Source: Synechocystis sp. PCC 7338 (GTDB taxonomy: Bacteria; Cyanobacteriota; Cyanobacteriia; Cyanobacteriales; Microcystaceae). Taken from it: a stretch of 64,000 bases of DNA. This document shows, piece after piece, positions 9,568 through 31,853 of this stretch. Each line of letters opens with the position of its first letter. Position 1 is the stretch's first letter. The stretch is from contig NZ_CP054306.1 in the NCBI RefSeq assembly GCF_018282115.1, positions 1,783,488 to 1,847,487 on the forward strand, written 5' to 3'. A program made the translations under genes and the position numbers. The notes under the pieces are model-generated. The model was given only the letters and a program-made list of their open reading frames with translations. It did not search any database and had not been told where the DNA came from.

Positions 9568-9600
9568 GGACTAATGGGCGATCGTCTGTTAGTCCTTTTT
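9568..9600 (+). terminator. rho-independent terminator after murA
   Basis: Stem GGACTAA/TTAGTCC (9568-9574 with 9589-9595) around a loop that contains a CGATCG core, followed directly by five T. It lies 23 bases after the murA stop and about 50 before fumC. Confidence 0.8.
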
Positions 9601-9652
9601 GCTGATTGTTTGTCAGAGCGTTGCCACTAGAAAAACATTTGCAAATTTCGCC

Positions 9653-11089
9653 ATGGTAAATTCCCACCGTCTTGAAACCGATAGCATGGGTCTCTTAGAA
9701 GTGCCGGCCGATCGCCTATGGGGGGCCCAAACCCAACGCTCCCTGATGTTTTTTGGCATTGGGAGTGACGTGATGCCACCGGATTTAATTCGAGCCTTTG
9801 CCGTGCTGAAAAAAGCGGCCGCGATTACCAACCGGGATCTGGGTAAATTGCCAGGGGACAAGGCAGAGTTAATTATTCAGGCGGCGGATGAAATTATGGC
9901 CGGGCAGTGGTTAGACCATTTTCCTTTACGGATTTGGCAGACCGGCAGTGGCACCCAAACCAATATGAACGTTAATGAAGTGATTGCCAATCGGGCGATC
10001 GCCATGGTGGGGGGAGAATTGGGTAGTAAAAATCCTATCCATCCCAATGACCATGTCAATATGTCCCAGTCCTCCAACGACACTTTTCCCACGGCGATGC
10101 ACATTGCGGCAGTGGAAGGTCTGCAAAGTAAATTAATTCCCAGTTTGCAAGCTCTGCGGGATAGTCTCCAAGAAAAAGGGAATAGTTTTGCTAGTATCAT
10201 CAAAATCGGCCGTACCCATCTGATGGATGCAGTGCCCCTAACTTTAGGGCAGGAATTTTCCGGTTATGTAGCCCAGTTAGACCAGGGGTTAACCCAGCTT
10301 AATCATTGCTTACCAGGATTGTTAGAACTGGCCCTGGGGGGAACGGCGGTGGGCACCGGCTTAAATAGCCATCCCCAATTTGCCGAAAAAGTAGCCCAGG
10401 AAATTGCCCAGTTAACCGGCTATCCTTTCGTTTCTGCCCCCAACAAGTTTGCCGCCCTGGCCGGCCACGAGGCGATCGCCTTTGCCAGTGGCGTGCTGAA
10501 AAGTATTGCCACTTCCCTAATGAAAATCGCCAATGACCTACGCTGGATGGGGTCTGGCCCCCGCTGTGGCCTAGGGGAATTGGTGCTCCCAGCCAATGAA
10601 CCGGGTTCTTCCATCATGCCGGGGAAAGTAAATCCGACCCAATGTGAAGCCCTGACCATGGTCTGTGTGCAGGTAATGGGCAACGATGCCACCATCGGCT
10701 TTGCCGCCAGCCAAGGCAACTTTGAACTGAATGTCTTTAAACCTGTCATCATCCACAACTTTCTCCAATCCATCCATTTGCTCAGTGATAGCTGTGTCAG
10801 TTTCCGGCAAAATTTGGTAACAGGATTGGAAGTAAACGAAGGCAAAGTCAAAGAATTTTTAGACAACTCCTTAATGCTAGTCACCGCCCTCAATCCCCAC
10901 ATCGGTTACGACAATGCTGCCCAAGTAGCCAAAACCGCTTTTAGTGAAGGCATTACCCTCAAACAAGCGGCGGTGCATTTGGGTCTATTAACTCCAGAAC
11001 AGTTCGACGCTTGGGTAATTCCGGAGCAGATGATTGCCCCGATCGCCGATGAGCCCATTCATCCAACTCAAAATTTCCTGAAGCTTTAA
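9653..11089 (+). CDS. fumC: class II fumarate hydratase FumC
   Basis: 478 residues from ATG at 9653. An earlier TTG at 9599 lies in the murA terminator and is rejected. It interconverts fumarate and malate in the TCA cycle. Superfamily signatures: [48 protein letters not shown], and the mobile-loop signature [13 protein letters not shown] at about residue 320. This is the iron-free, oxygen-stable type, which suits an oxygen-evolving organism. Full length with no anomaly. Confidence 0.97.
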
Positions 11090-11145
11090 ACTGTCATGGG
11101 GCAGCTCTGGATTTTCATGCTGGCGATCGATGATAAATTACTGGG

Positions 11146-11286
11146 GTGTTTGACAACATCTGTAAATACCTCGCCGAAACCTTTTCCCAGAACCATGCCA
11201 CCTGGCTTCTCGGAAAACCCGTTACCCTCACAGCCCTCAGTCCCAAGGAATTATCATTGGAACCCATCCGGGCCGACGCCTTAACA
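11146..11286 (+). pseudogene. N-terminal stub of an Rpn/PD-(D/E)XK-type family protein
   Basis: From GTG at 11146 the frame reads about 47 residues resembling the N-terminus of the Rpn-type (recombination-promoting nuclease-like) proteins common in cyanobacteria: VFDNICKYLAETF, then ATWLLGK and LSLEPIRADAL. The similarity stops exactly where the TnpB-type element begins (about 11287). I find no continuation beyond the element's right end, so the rest of the gene, including the nuclease core, is gone. Assignment by pattern recognition only. Confidence 0.6.
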
Positions 11287-11390
11287 AAAATATGGCACGG
11301 GAATTCCCCTCCCTAAAGGAAGGGGATGTACCGAGAGCCTTAATTCCTTGCTAGTCTTGTGCTGCCGATAATCGGTAAGTCATTTTACGG

Positions 11391-12712
11391 TAATACTTAG
11401 AGCAACTAGGTTTCGCATTTATCCGACAGCAAAGCAGGAGCTACATTTCAGACGTAGCTTTGGGTGCTGTCGTTTTGCGTATAATTTTGCTCTAAACCTT
11501 GTCAATGAGACTTACAAGGAAACGGGGAAAGGATTGGGACGATTTGCAATCCAAAAGGCAATCACCGAACTCAAAAAAGAAGACGAATGGATGAGTGAGC
11601 CGTACTCGCAATGTTTGCAAGTGGTGGCGTTGAACTTGTCCAGGACATTTATTAACTTTTTTGAAAGACGTGGGGACTATCCCCGGTTCAAGTCTAAGAG
11701 CCTGTTTGGAAAGTTGAGTTTTGGCTATCTAATCCCCCCTAGCCCCCCTTGGGAAGGAGGGAAATGTCACAAAAGCCCCCCTTTTTAAGCCGGAGCTTTA
11801 GTGAGGAGATTTAGGGGGATAAATACCTAGCTTTGTACTTTTCAAACACTTTCTAAGCATTGGCGGCAATCCATTAGCTACCCCCAAAATGTCAAGGTTG
11901 TTGATAATGGCATCAAATTCCCAAAAATAGGAAAAGTTGATGTTGTTATTCACCGGGATATAGAAGAGGCAGTGAAGACTGTTACTGTTTCCATGAATGC
12001 CAAGGGACAATACTTTGCCTCTCTCTTAGTGGATGATGGTAACGGAATTCGCAATCAATCCGTGGACGGTAAAGCGGTCGGAATTGACCTAGGGCTAACT
12101 CATTTTGTCATTACCAGTGATAGCTCCAAGTTCAATAATCCCCGCTGGTTGAGCAAGCATGAGCGCAACCTGAAGCAAAAACAGAAACGGTTATCCCGCC
12201 GCAAAAAAGTTTCCAATAACCAGAATAAAGCTAGGCTACAGGTAGCGACTGTTCACGATAAAATTGCCCGTTGCCGGGAAGACTTTCACCATAAGCTATC
12301 ACGCAGGATAGTAGACGAAAACCAAGTCATCGTGGTGGAAAATCTAGCTGTACGGAACATGATGCAAAACCACTACCTTGTCCAGTCCATTGGACAAGTG
12401 GGATGGGGTGAATTTTGCACCATGTTGAAATACAAGTCGGAGTGGGAAGGAAAGGTCTATGTTGAAGTGGATCGTTTCTTCCCATCTTCTAAAACCTGTA
12501 ACGTTTGCCTAAACGGGTTTGCCAGCCTTCTCCTGGATATTAGGTTCAAATGCGGTACTAAACATGACCGTGATATAAATGCCGCACTCAACATCCGAGA
12601 CGAAGGACTGCGTATTTTGACCTCTGGAACGGGGGATTCCGCCTATTGTCTAGCTGTAAGACAAGGTAGTAAAGGACGCAAGTCTTATACCACTTTGCAG
12701 GCTACTGGATAG
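11391..12712 (+). pseudogene. tnpB: tnpB (IS605-type RNA-guided nuclease), split and damaged
   Basis: The N-terminal part reads ATRFRIYPTAKQE and RRSFGCCRFAYNFAL and continues to FKSK at 11698. The frame is then broken by a 154-base insertion and resumes at 11858 with HWRQSISYPQNVKV, running to the stop at 12712. The RuvC residues are all there: GIDLGLTHF (Asp), VVVENLAVRNM (Glu) and HDRDINAALNI (Asp). The zinc finger is damaged: after CNVC the second CxxC half reads RFKCGTKHDRD, which looks like a four-residue deletion that removed one cysteine. No good start codon is visible at the 5' end. Not expected to be functional. Confidence 0.8.
11699..11852. repeat. MITE-like insertion inside tnpB
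   Basis: Flanked by a direct repeat TCTAAG (11693-11698 and 11852-11857). Imperfect terminal inverted repeats: AGCCTGTTTGGAAAGT on the left, and the complement of the right end reads AAAGTGTTTGAAAAGT (12 of 16 match). Inside are GC-rich palindromic blocks (ATCCCCCCTAGCCCCCCTTGG and, near the right, TTAGGGGGAT). Too short to encode a transposase. Removing it together with one copy of the repeat restores the tnpB frame exactly. Confidence 0.8.
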
Positions 12713-12774
12713 GAAGCTCCCTCCTTTAGGGCGGAGTAGTTCACAATGCTCCTCGGTTCGCCCACAAGTTTCGG

Positions 12775-12866
12775 GGGTGACTAGAATAAACTCCCCCAGC
12801 ATTGCGGTTGCTTTAGTGGGTCGATCAAGGAGGCAAACTGCAACTTTGCCAACAGGCTCTTAAGTT
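12775..12866 (-). repeat. diverged copy of the palindromic repeat, reverse orientation
   Basis: On the minus strand the sequence from about 12866 downward begins TTAAGAGCCTGTTGGCAAAG, close to the left end of the insertion in tnpB. It then contains CCCACTAAAGC between C-rich and GGGGGAG arms, as in the related repeats at 11.8 and 52.6 kb. The distal end is uncertain. It lies between the TnpB element and the rnd gene. Confidence 0.5.
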
Positions 12867-12869
12867 GGG

Positions 12870-13523
12870 CTAACCGGGCCCGCCATGCTCAAACACATTG
12901 CCATACATACCTAAATCCAGTGTTACCATCACCGGCAAACACTCAAAACACCGTTGGGCTAACCTTAAACGATCCTCCCTAGCGAGCATTGCTTCTAACT
13001 TGTGCCGTAGGGGAATCAAATAACGCACATCATTGGCGGCATAGGCTAATTGATCCTTACTCAAATTGGCAGCGTTGCCCCAATCAGAACATTGGGAAGA
13101 TTTATCCAATTCCACTCCCACCAACTCCTGCACCAGCGTCTTGAGTCCATGGTGGGAAGTGTAGGTGCGGGCGATTTTACTGGCAATTTTACTACAAAAA
13201 ATTGGATAGGTTTTAATGTCAAAGGTGTGTTTCAGTTGGGCCGTGTCAAAACGAGCAAAATGGAAGATTTTTGTTATGGCTGGGTCTTGCATCAGCCGGG
13301 CCAAGTTGGGAGCTTCCTCCTGGCCCTTGGCAATGCGTAAAGCCGTTACATTACCCTCTGGATCACAAATTTGCACCAAGCAGAGGCGATCTCGATGGGG
13401 ATTTAAGCCCATGGTTTCCGTATCCACCGCAACTTCTTTGCAAGACAAAAGCTGCTGGCAAACGTCTTCGGGTAAATCGTAATCAAAAACTTGGAACTGA
13501 TTCAAAATATCGGCAGAGGGCAT
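12870..13523 (-). CDS. rnd: RNase D-like 3'-5' exonuclease
   Basis: About 217 residues from ATG at 13523 (a TTG three codons upstream is less likely). DEDDy exonuclease: AVDTETMGL (Asp34/Glu36), FHFARFDTAQL, and the Exo III motif YAANDVRYL with the Tyr of the DEDDy class. It lacks the HRDC domains of E. coli RNase D, so it is a short single-domain form, usual in cyanobacteria. Probable role is tRNA or small-RNA 3' trimming. The stop lies just after the repeat copy. Confidence 0.88.
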   Translation of the reverse strand: MPSADILNQFQVFDYDLPEDVCQQLLSCKEVAVDTETMGLNPHRDRLCLVQICDPEGNVTALRIAKGQEEAPNLARLMQDPAITKIFHFARFDTAQLKHTFDIKTYPIFCSKIASKIARTYTSHHGLKTLVQELVGVELDKSSQCSDWGNAANLSKDQLAYAANDVRYLIPLRHKLEAMLAREDRLRLAQRCFECLPVMVTLDLGMYGNVFEHGGPG

Positions 13524-13561
13524 GGTTAGCAACCAAAATCAATGAAGGAATAGTTAGTTTC

Positions 13562-27194: not shown

Positions 27195-28589
27195 TATCCC
27201 TCTTCCGTCAGACTGAGGGAATTAAAATGGAGATAAAAGGCTGAAAAGCGCGGAGGGAGAATGACAAAGACAAGAGAGGCGAAAAAGACAGTACAGTGTG
27301 TAGACACATATAGTGAACTGTATAAAGATATATTTCCAGAAGTGAGGTCTTATGAGTCATTTAAATATATCATTGTGGGAATATTAAGTGATATAAAAAG
27401 AAAGAGTTTACCTGCAATAGCATCATCACTAGGATTGAAAAATGAACAGGGATTACTGCATTTCATGACAGATTCTCCTTGGGAATTAAAAGAATTAGAA
27501 AAAAGAAGATTAAATATTATCTTAGAAGTTTTAGAAGGAAGAGAAATAATAGTAATAATAGATGAAACAGGAGACCCCAAAAAAGGGAAAACAACAGATT
27601 ATGTAAAAAGACAATATATTGGAAATTTAGGAAAAATAGAAAGCGGTATAGTGTCAGTAAATGCCTATGGTTACTGCAATGGAGTAACGTTTCCTCTAGA
27701 ATCAAAAGTATTTAAACCAAAAGAAAGATTAAAAGAGGGAGATAAGTATAAAACAAAGCCGGAATTAGCAGTAGAGATAATAAAAGAACTAGAAGAAAGT
27801 GGTTTTAAAATAAAAAGAGTAGTGTCAGATAGCTTATATGGAGAAAGCCATAGCAATTTTATCAGTGCCGTAGAGGAATTAAAAATAGAATATGCAGTGG
27901 AAATCCGGAGCAATCATGGGGTCTGGCTTCCAAAGGAAGCTAAAGTAAGGGCAAATAAGTGGAGGAGGTTTGAACATATAAGATGGGATGGAAAACAGGA
28001 AGATAGGTATATCAGAGAAATAGTTTATGGCAAAAAAAACGCAATAAGATATTGGGAAATTAAAACAGAAACAGAAAAAGAGGAGGAAAAAGCAGGATGG
28101 TTTGTAATGACTCGAATACCAGATATTAAATATAAAGAAGTTGTCAGAATATATGGGGTAAGGTCATGGATAGAATATGGATTTAAGCAATGCAAAAGTG
28201 AATTAGGATGGGCAGATTTTAGGGTAACTCATTATGAGCAAATTCAAAAATGGTGGGAATTAGTGATGTGTGCATATTGTATGATTTGTTTTTATGATGA
28301 GAATTTTAATCCGACTCTAAATTCAACGTCAAAGTATCATCAAAAGCATGAAAAATGGGATAAAGAAGAAGGGTGGAAAAAATGGCTAAACAACCTACGA
28401 TTAGTGATCTCTGTATTTAATGCAATAAATCTTATCAAAAAGTGGTTAAAAGTATTTCCATTTGCCCATGTTTTGGATGAGTTAACTAAACTTTACAACA
28501 AGGTTGATAAGCTAGATCGATTAAAGTATTTGCTAAATTCATGGAATACATTCTATTCTTCTTCTGCCTAGATTGATGAAAGAGGGATA
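27195..28589 (+). mobile_element. IS701-type insertion sequence
   Basis: About 1395 bases, AT-rich and free of HIP1 sites, unlike the flanks. Terminal inverted repeats: TATCCCTCTTCCGTCAGA at the left, and the complement of the right end reads TATCCCTCTTTCATCAAT. Flanking four-base words differ (ACAC left, TTCC right), so there is no target duplication. One transposase gene fills it. Confidence 0.85.
27261..28571 (+). CDS. IS701/IS4-related DDE transposase
   Basis: 436 residues, apparently intact. DDE RNase-H-like core: the first Asp in IVIIDETGDPKKGK, the second in VVSDSLYG, and the Glu probably in the YGVRSWIEYGFKQCKSELGW region (the Y-(2)-R-(3)-E-(6)-K signature is visible). The N-terminus carries RKSLPAIASSLGL as in the IS701 family. 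Lysine-, glutamate- and isoleucine-rich composition matches the AT-rich DNA and marks recent arrival. A GGAGGGAG ribosome-binding stretch precedes the ATG. Probably active. Confidence 0.88.
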   Translation: MTKTREAKKTVQCVDTYSELYKDIFPEVRSYESFKYIIVGILSDIKRKSLPAIASSLGLKNEQGLLHFMTDSPWELKELEKRRLNIILEVLEGREIIVIIDETGDPKKGKTTDYVKRQYIGNLGKIESGIVSVNAYGYCNGVTFPLESKVFKPKERLKEGDKYKTKPELAVEIIKELEESGFKIKRVVSDSLYGESHSNFISAVEELKIEYAVEIRSNHGVWLPKEAKVRANKWRRFEHIRWDGKQEDRYIREIVYGKKNAIRYWEIKTETEKEEEKAGWFVMTRIPDIKYKEVVRIYGVRSWIEYGFKQCKSELGWADFRVTHYEQIQKWWELVMCAYCMICFYDENFNPTLNSTSKYHQKHEKWDKEEGWKKWLNNLRLVISVFNAINLIKKWLKVFPFAHVLDELTKLYNKVDKLDRLKYLLNSWNTFYSSSA

Positions 28590-31500
28590 TTCCGCTGTAT
28601 TTTTTGGTTGGCCACAGGCCACCATTAAACCTAACCGCCGCACATCTACCCCAACGGAAATCATGTTGGTGGCCAGAATTACATCGAGGGGACGACTTTT
28701 TTGGCGAGATTGCCCCTGGGATTTTTGATCCTTTGTAACTGTCAAGGATTTCACCTCAAAAGGCTGTTCCAGGGCATCTAGGATTTTCGGGATGTCGGTG
28801 GAGCTTTTACGGGAAGTTAATTCCTCAATGCGGTTAAGGTAGCGTTTTGCCAGTCCCCGTTCATCCATTTTGCTCAAACAGGTGGTGATGTCATCATCCA
28901 CTAAACGACGGGTGCCTCCTAACTCCCGTAGGGAATTGAAATAGCCCACTAGGGTCATCCAAGCATCGGCATTGTACCCTTCGTCCATTAGCTGTTGGGC
29001 GGCAGATAGGGCCACCAGATAGACCCGAATCAAAGCGGCTTTTAGACGGCGACTGGGGGCACAAATGCCCAAATATAATCGACCCGGATAATCCTCACCG
29101 GGGGGACGTTGACGGGAAAAGAAGTTGTCTTCAATGGCGATCGCCTGGGGAGGGAAAATCGCTAGTTTACGGGCAAAAAGATGATGAACTTGAATAGGAG
29201 CTTGGCGAATAGTGGCGGTGGAAGCAACGATTTTGGGTCGCACGTTTTTACCCTCCACTTCCCAAGTACAGAGGGCATCGATCGCCGTTTCATAGAGGCC
29301 CACTAAACTACCCAGGGGGCCACTGATCAAATGTAACTCGTCTTGAATGATTAGATCCGGTGGTCGTAGGGAAGGATGGGGTCGAGTTTTAGCGGCGGGT
29401 AATTTGCTGGTTTTGGGATGGCTGTCACTGTCTTCCAGATCAGGACAGCGGAATCCATGGCGATCGCAGTAACCATTGACTTTGCCGAATAGCATTTGGA
29501 TTTTGCCATTCCAGGGCATCTGGGCAAATTTATCCACTGTGGCAATGACTAGGGCCGGTAGGCGGCGATAGATTTCCTCATCCACCGTAATAATGGGCAA
29601 CCCTTCATGGGGGGACTTTTTACGACTGAAGAGACATTTACCCAACTTGTCACCACAGTAAACCAAGGTTCTGCCTTGATCCTTTTCAAAGGATTTCACT
29701 TCAATGTCTCGACCGGCATTAATTTCTGTGCCGCACCAAGGGCAATTGGTGAGTTGATGGGGAGTGCCGGTATTGCCGCTGTAACCCTGGCCCTTTTCCT
29801 GTTTGATGACTTCTTCACTTTGCTTTGTCCAGTTGGGGGTGCTGTTGTTGCCCACCCATAGCCCGATGCGAAAGGGTTCCTGGCCCCATTTTTTAGGATT
29901 TTCTCGCCGCAGGTCTTCACAGGCACAAATTAAAGTGGTAGCTCGTTGGAATTGTTGTAGGGTCAACAACCGCAGGGTATAACGCATCAACACTGCTATC
30001 CCATGTTCTCCATCATGGCCCGCTACGGTTCCTTGGAGTCTTCTAATAGCCAAGGTATAGGCAGTTAATCCTAAATAGGCTTCCGTCTTGCCACCCCCGG
30101 TGGGAAACCAAAGTAAATCACATAAGCCCTGGCGATCGCCGTGGCGGTCGGGATGGTGCAGATCCGTGAGACTGGGCAGGTTGATCAAAATAAATGCCAA
30201 TTGGAAGGTGCGCCAACTATGGTTTTTTTCTTGATCTAAGGAATCTAGGGTGACTTTTTTTCCCTGGCGTATTTGTTCGGCATACATTCCCCGTACCCTT
30301 TGTTTGGCCATAGCCCCATTCATAAATTGAAATGCTTCCACTGCCTGGGCATTGGTTTCGAGGAGTTCTATGCCAGCTCGGATGCGTTCTAGGGCCTGTT
30401 GGCAATTGCCCAAATTATTGGCGGCGGCGGATCGATAGCTGGGAGGATCTGAGGGAAGTTGAGTGGTTAATTGTTGTTGTTCCCCCAACCATTGCTCGTA
30501 GGCGGTGACGAGGGGATAAAGGATGGGGGGCAGGGCTTCTGGCTCCACTTTGGCTAGCACTTTCATATCGAGGATTAAACCCTTCAAGCCCGGAATTTCG
30601 ATCTCATCGGGGGGTGTGGTTTGGGGGACTTCATAACGGGGTATAACGCTGGTTTTGAGGCAATGGGCACGGGTTTTATCCTGGGGGTCAACATCAGTAT
30701 GAATACTCGTATTGTGACCAACGGCAAATTCTTGGATATTGCGGTAGAGCAGTTGGAGTGACTGTTGCTCGAAACGGACGCTATCGTCGAGTTTGGTACT
30801 GGCGGGGAGGGGTTTACGGACAAAGATTGAGGTTTTGTCGGGGCTAGTAATTTTAAGTTCCGGTTGAAATAACCAGGCTCCATCCCGATTTTTTTCCGGT
30901 TCCAGTTGGCGATTCTCTAGAAAGACAGTGACAATCCAATCATCTTTTAAGCGACGGCTTTTGAGGGTAACAACAACTTCCGGTGCGTCTTGAGGGCAGG
31001 GAACCCAATCTGATTTTTCTGTCCTTTCTTGCAATGAAAAGACCTTTCTTGCCTCCATGGGGGTACGCACCCAAACGGTTTTAGGATTGCCTGCTTCGGT
31101 GGTGATACTTTTACTTTCTTCCCTCTCATAGCGTCCCCACTGGGCATGGATCTGAATTTCTGATGCTTGCCCATCAACACAAAAACTTAGCCCCAAGGAA
31201 TAAGGGAAAAGACTACTGGGAGGGGCTATGTCCTCACTGTCCCCATCGTCGTTGCTCTTTTTGCCGGTGGCGGCGAGGCTATCCTGTTGGGCGGGGTCAT
31301 CTTCTTTGATTTCGGTGCTTTTCTGACTCCGTTTACGGGGGGCGATCGCCCCGACTAGGTATCTTTCGGTGAGGCTCGGTTCGTCCACTTCTTCAAATTC
31401 ACCGCCGGTAGGCCCCAACAGATCTTTGTAAATCATGGTGACGAGGCGATCTCGGATCTGATTTGGACTGAGGACTTTGGAAGCAAGGACAGAGTTTTCT

Positions 31501-31853
31501 TTCTCTGGGTCTGTATTCTGGGCAGGAATAAATTCAGTATCAAGTAGTTCTGATTGCCCACTTTTGTTATTGGGTTGAGCAGGAACCAATTTTTCTTGAA
31601 AAAGTTTCCCTTGGGATGATGACTTAACCGACTTTGATGATGATGGTGGTTTTTCCGGCGGCATACCAAGGATAGCCAAAAGCCGATTGGCAAGCTTTTC
31701 CGAAAGACTATCTCCCCCTAGTTCAGTGATTGCTTCAGCATCTAACCCCTGTATCAAAAGAGCTAGATGGGTATCCTTCACTTCTTCGACTAAACTCCAA
31801 TTCAGTTGGGCTGTTCCATGGAATTTGGCATTTCCTAGACGGCGGTCTCGCAC
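28539..31853 (-). pseudogene. drmA: DISARM helicase DrmA, C-terminally truncated and fused to the tail of DrmMI
   Basis: 1104-codon frame from GTG at 31853. Residues 1 to about 70 look like the C-terminus of a DISARM methylase (RRLGNAKFHGTAQLNW), then a linker. DrmA proper starts near residue 130 (QIRDRLVTMIYKDLLGPTGG, ERYLVGAIAPRKRS). Helicase features: Walker A WFPTGGGKTEAYLG (about 583), a zinc-finger-like CPWCGTEI, DELHLISGPLGSLVGLYETA, IVASTATIR, LGICAPSRRLKAALIRVY and ATNMISVGVDV. The frame enters the IS at 28589, inside KNTAEY, just before the expected motif VI (IQATSRVGR-like), so the arginine finger and everything after are lost. The last 17 codons are IS-derived. Confidence 0.85.

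Follow-up and report, generated by a model that had tools for sequence, protein, structure and literature searches.

A putative Rpn-family gene of Synechocystis very probably split by reciprocal exchange at the edge of a TnpB element

Background

Elements with a lone tnpB gene make up what we take to be the IS1341 type, the tnpB-only members of the IS200/IS605 superfamily, and MITEs with a TNA target duplication and GAG... ends are known for some IS5-family groups. For the IS-rich chromosome of the cyanobacterium Planktothrix, in which IS200/IS605 elements are abundant, an IS-linked inversion of about 270 kbp is described (PMC9366434). For a Helicobacter pylori island, loss of the 3' half via IS605-mediated deletion is presumed (PMC3120642). 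Of the Rpn (YhgA-like) recombination-promoting nucleases, Kingston et al. 2017 (PMC5350276) suggest that they may derive from mobile elements by erosion and that their action may yield substrates for microhomology-mediated assembly.

Here we describe a locus of Synechocystis sp. PCC 7338 at which an rpn gene ends beside a TnpB element; the window is the whole stretch of 64,000 nucleotides that was analysed (NZ_CP054306.1, positions 1,783,488 to 1,847,487). Like the Rpn nucleases (PMC5350276), the gene has several paralogues in its genome and an intact homologue that matches TIGR01784; it differs from them in being split. The far half of a gene or island gone beside an IS605-type element, as in the H. 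pylori case (PMC3120642), was also the history assumed by the original prediction, in which the arrival of TnpB was followed by deletion, whereas the far half of the window gene survives elsewhere in the same chromosome. With the Planktothrix case (PMC9366434), the locus shares a very probable large inversion in an IS-rich cyanobacterial chromosome with abundant IS200/IS605 elements, but here both junctions are resolved to the base, an element stands at only one of them, and the exchange seems to have run via TTAA and not via two element copies. The listed titles and abstract openings of open-licence literature on TnpB/IS605, on MITEs and on inversion breakpoints contain no description of this junction. 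A plausible but wrong deletion history is replaced by a base-resolved reciprocal exchange, and the locus gives one clear case in which the edge of a TnpB element coincides exactly with a rearrangement junction; before concluding that the "missing half" of a gene was deleted, one should look for it in the rest of the genome.

Results and discussion

The genus sample comprised five genomes (G000 to G004), of which G000 contains the window and G004, a draft of about 120 contigs, corresponds to Synechocystis salina LEGE 00031. From left to right the locus consists of fumC (9599-11089, plus strand), an rpn 5' stub (11146-11284, plus strand), a single base C, the tnpB-only element (11286-12744, plus strand), the remnant of an older MITE-like repeat (12745-12862) and an intact RNase D-like gene on the minus strand (12870-13532), whose ancestral neighbour sits at the other junction described below. 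The names fumC, RNase D-like and permease-like are presumed from our own reading of the sequences.

The stub comprises codons 1-46 of rpn and is cut at TTAA (11281-11284). Its residues 1-47 are 91% identical to an intact gene of 275 codons in G003, which also lies after fumC and matches TIGR01784 "Rpn family" with E=3.1e-37 and 128.9 bits (cut-off 52.1). The predicted Rpn-like N-terminus was therefore borne out through a syntenic homologue, and the intact gene that was to be sought in related genomes was found next to fumC. A profile search had been named beforehand as the test of the Rpn similarity; it supported the similarity for this homologue and not for the stub itself, which alone matched no family in Pfam or NCBIfam at E<=1. 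The intact G003 gene gave no Pfam match at E<=0.01 and no related solved structure at E<=0.001. Stub matches were present in 30 of the 38 genomes searched and, among the matches listed, most stop at query residues 46-48, the cut site of the stub. Six other rpn genes are found in G000. We read the window gene as a split member of the Rpn family, a putative nuclease; the stub looks dead, and the locus does not look like a working system.

The far part of the gene, which had been thought missing, lies on the opposite strand of the same chromosome about 378 kb away (L066:6601-7009; G000:C1 about 2,173,601-2,174,008). Its middle part is 91% identical to the G003 gene, and it is open from about codon 46 up to an interrupting IS701 copy, beyond which the remainder of rpn, 75% identical to G003, continues with one stop before the expected end. 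Against TIGR01784 the displaced part scored 48.3 bits (E=1.2e-12), under the cut-off of 52.1. The DNA past the displaced half is that which follows rpn in G003 and fumC in G004. On its other side a permease-like gene starts at L066:7008, and in both G003 and G004 this gene is directly upstream of the RNase D-like gene; the DNA joined to the displaced rpn is thus the DNA that directly precedes window position 12745 and onwards in these two genomes. At the bases themselves, G003 rpn reads GCGTTAATTTTGGAG and the window reads GCCTTAAC up to the element, while the second junction reads GAGAGTTTTTAATTTTGGAG and the G004 spacer GAGAGTTTTTTAAATGCTTCTAATGCTCC. Both crossovers fall at TTAA, which is present in both parental sequences, and zero rpn bases were lost, which refutes the view that TnpB arrival was followed by deletion: the 3' part sits at the reciprocal junction.

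The two junctions are reciprocal, lie on one replicon and have opposite orientations, as expected of an inversion. The four sides of two ancestral neighbourhoods have changed partners on a single chromosome, at points about 378 kb apart and with opposite orientation, which makes a reciprocal, inversion-type exchange very probable. The microhomology at TTAA is weak, suggestive evidence as to the route, because 1.9% of random point pairs from the window share a run of at least four bases. At the chromosome scale the stretches sampled from G002 and G003 are so heavily shuffled in gene order relative to G000 that the inversion does not stand out as a reversed block. The relative orientation of the two regions in G003 is unlike that predicted from a single inversion, so further rearrangements must have occurred; as rearrangements are evidently common in the genus, the exchange is less surprising.

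The IS701 copy in the displaced rpn half is 99.9% identical to a copy at 27195-28589 of the window. The latter ends within a DrmA-like (DISARM) gene (28539-31853), removing the 3' end of that gene.

The TnpB element is 1459 bp long including an inserted MITE, with its left end set by comparison with two other elements and its right end by comparison with nine. Its identity as a TnpB element was confirmed by family profiles and by the right end AGTTCAC (ending at 12744), which is common to nine of the ten other aligned copies. In the profile search, the tnpB part after the MITE matched NF040570, NF038281, PF01385 and PF07282, and the part before it NF038281 and NF040570; the post-MITE part reached 219 bits with NF040570 (cut-off 100) and 240 of 425 bits with the stricter NF038281, which for this fragment is under the cut-off. 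The ends are defined, there is no target duplication, and the target stands directly before the left end, all as in IS200/IS605 elements. The element itself carries tnpB only and no Y1 transposase; PF01797 had no match in G000 at E<=0.001 and had matches in three of the five genus genomes. A search of 11000-13000 against Rfam, for a guide RNA or any other family, gave no match at E<=1, and no empty site of the window element was found.

The tnpB gene (11393-12712, plus strand) does not have an intact frame with start codon and zinc finger. It carries ATA where relatives carry ATG, a loss of 12 bases from the zinc-finger region, which by our reading removes a Cys, and the MITE, which keeps the frame and introduces stops; it reads as a pseudogene broken in three ways. 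With the presumed IS1341 type the element shares a lone tnpB, a left end after a short T-rich target and a conserved right end, and it departs from them in this threefold damage and in its target, TTAAC instead of TTATC. The TTATC stands before the left ends of six other elements, which were placed by eye (two in one alignment and four of 15 loci in another).

Of 38 genomes, 26 contain relatives of TnpB at E<=1e-40. Outside G000 the top match, in genome G025, has 75% identity and an open frame of 414 aa, and its DNA has no insert at the position of the MITE. Within the genus, matches at this threshold were limited to TnpBs with 45-46% identity (three in G000 and two in G003), and a DNA search there yielded a 443-bp fragment, 88% identical, together with shorter pieces of the right end. 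Such pieces, of about 90-107 bp and without adjoining tnpB, occur at G000:C1:2451671, 222730, 2821251 and 3537794 (L075-L078) and at G004:C70:16777 (L079); they are possibly non-autonomous derivatives of the TnpB element.

How the element came to stand beside rpn is a separate matter. According to the original prediction TnpB had inserted inside the Rpn gene. The element does abut the stub; insertion into rpn is doubtful, since the C between TTAA and the element, the last base of TTAAC (11281-11285, plus strand), is absent from both G003 rpn and the second junction. The element and the exchange interrupt the older MITE-like repeat on its left side; in G004 this repeat is present without the TnpB element (84% identical over 122 bases), and in G003 it is absent. 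It has four distant matches of 73-81% identity, and two of the three aligned distant copies read TTTTACAA at the matching place, close to the predicted empty site, TTTTTAAC followed by AATG. The absence of the C from G003 rpn, the T of rpn that the second junction keeps, and the TTTTACAA of the older-repeat copies together favour an element that originated on the RNase D side and reached rpn through the exchange. Before the exchange it would then have stood next to the RNase D-like gene, within the older MITE, without ever having been inserted in rpn. We are less sure of this origin than of the exchange: G004 has eight or nine extra bases at the predicted insertion point, the window has TTAAC where six other elements have TTATC, and among the five genomes of the genus none shows the intermediate arrangement. 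The exchange and the RNase D-side origin taken together are, in our judgement, somewhat favoured.

Under this history the older repeat would have entered the spacer between the permease-like and RNase D-like genes first, being common to G000 and G004 and absent in G003. The tnpB-only element would then have landed at TTAAC (or TTATC) within this older MITE, and the exchange would have run by microhomology via the TTAA just left of the element, leaving the latter against the rpn 5' half. The young MITE landed in tnpB later than the element arrived, be it ahead of the exchange or following it, and the IS701 copy landed in the displaced 3' half of rpn.

The strongest competitor, which we consider unlikely, has the element inserting in rpn first, at a TTAAC made by one base change, with the exchange then breaking at its right end. 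This would account for the element abutting rpn and for a left flank that ends in C like the flanks of related elements. However, it needs a base change in rpn that the second junction, which keeps TTAATTTTGG, does not show, as well as a break exactly at the right end and the loss of a few spacer bases. Less likely again is an exchange that came first and joined the TTAA of rpn to CAATGCTCC, the element inserting later at the resulting TTAAC. The joined bases give TTAAC followed by AATG with no further change, but the insertion would have to fall within one base of an existing junction, a coincidence that the favoured order has in another form, and a strain with the empty junction was not found among the five genus genomes.

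Recombination between element copies is the usual route by which such elements cause inversions, and two inverted copies, one in rpn and one in the spacer, could in principle have recombined, with the copy at the second junction later excised precisely. We hold this to be very improbable: no element is present at that junction, G000 has no near-identical second copy (the nearest is the 88% fragment), and the C and the T are placed opposite to expectation if rpn had the G003 sequence. An assembly artefact, for which one could cite the recurrent IS701 copy 400 bp from the second junction, is hardly credible, as neither crossover lies in a repeat common to both places, and the same four bases make the junctions exactly reciprocal, which a misjoin at a repeat would not do. 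Least credible of all is a deletion with an unrelated paralogue at 2.174 Mb, for although G000 has six other rpn genes from which a stray 3' part could stem, this one is 91% identical to the fumC-linked G003 gene, begins at the TTAA of the stub, is followed by the same DNA as in G003 and forms a reciprocal junction.

Strand transfer of the Y1 type exactly at the end of a 5-base target was also considered and rejected. Assuming the G003 sequence for rpn, it predicts TTAAT before the element and TTAAC at the second junction, and the reverse is seen.

The favoured history, with an exchange that carried the element from the RNase D side to rpn, retains part of the nested history first proposed for the locus: the three-layer anatomy and the order in which the MITE came after TnpB hold, and the deletion does not. 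The MITE inside tnpB was verified by copy alignment and end searches. It is 156 bp long (11698-11853), not 154, with ends GAGCCTGTTTGGAAAGT and GAAAGTGTTTGAAAAGT, and its target duplication is 3 bp (TAA, at 11695-11697 and 11854-11856) and not six bases, the apparent extra duplicated bases being the last C and the first G of the MITE and one chance T. Its long left end was found at 11 places in the genome (0 for a reversed-pattern control), and four copies are 96-98% identical. The alignment comprised the window copy and 13 others, and ten copies had two clear ends; eight of these ten have the same TNA on both sides, the exceptions being L085 and L058. Copies L061-L064 were left out of this count on account of a missing or diverged end, and the diverged L064 also has TAA on both sides. 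A looser pattern of the ends matched 58 places in G000 and 3 in the control. No two end matches in G000 lie 0.2-8 kb apart, so an autonomous, full-length partner was not seen. The element is short, contains no gene, and has inverted ends, several copies and a target duplication, as MITEs do. In these features, its many copies and the TNA duplication it resembles the MITEs of some IS5-family groups, and it differs in that no full-length partner with its ends was found.

A side lead concerns HIP1. The sequence GGCGATCGAT (11122-11131, plus strand), a HIP1 derivative, is placed at exactly -24 relative to the start of the rpn stub. Among 22 other rpn copies of the genus, the HIP1 palindrome GGCGATCGCC was located exactly 24 bases before the start codon in 11, and no more than 100 bases past the stop in 10. 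The copies examined for this lead were L003, L048, L068, L186-L189 and L191-L202, and the count of 22 excludes the window copy, G001:C61 and truncated pieces on G003:C3. As a control, 189 ORFs of at least 200 aa in 360 kb of G000 were inspected; GGCGATCGCC occurred at -24 in 0 and within -40 to 0 in 5 of them. Pairwise comparison of 16 copies gave 120 pairs; 43 of them begin their similarity at -24 and 80 of them within -23 to -30, but on the right only 3 of the 120 end it at CGATCG, so the right-hand test failed. The flanks beyond HIP1 are mostly unrelated between rpn copies. Because the copies are related to each other, these counts do not represent independent events, and for three loci across the five genus genomes no clean empty site was found.

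Evidence tying HIP1 to site-specific recombination is noted in a paper on HIP sequences (PMC4390886). Speculatively, and against the odds as we see them, the rpn genes of Synechocystis might be mobile cassettes delimited by HIP1, with HIP1 sites as their points of entry and exit, and cutting by their putative nucleases could seed microhomology exchanges like that in the window. If true, this would bear on the role of HIP1 and on the mobility of Rpn genes. HIP1-bounded rpn genes are not described in the listed titles and abstract openings of open-licence literature on HIP1/GCGATCGC, Rpn and DUF4351.

Further changes around fumC and rpn occur in the genus. The native stop of fumC, TAG in G003, G004 and a G000 fragment, reads GAG in the window (10999-11089), which extends the window fumC by about 12 codons. 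Beyond rpn, both G000 (L066:4683-4857; G000:C1 about 2,171,682-2,171,856) and G003 (L048:7846-7989) carry a displaced piece of the fumC 3' end. In G004 no rpn follows fumC, and the end of fumC continues like the displaced G000 piece, a pattern that loss of rpn through recombination of one fumC end with the other would leave. In another rpn copy (L197; G003:C2:12500-16500) the sequence diverges 152 bases after the start, near the position at which the window copy is cut, and rpn 3' pieces are located close by in changed order.
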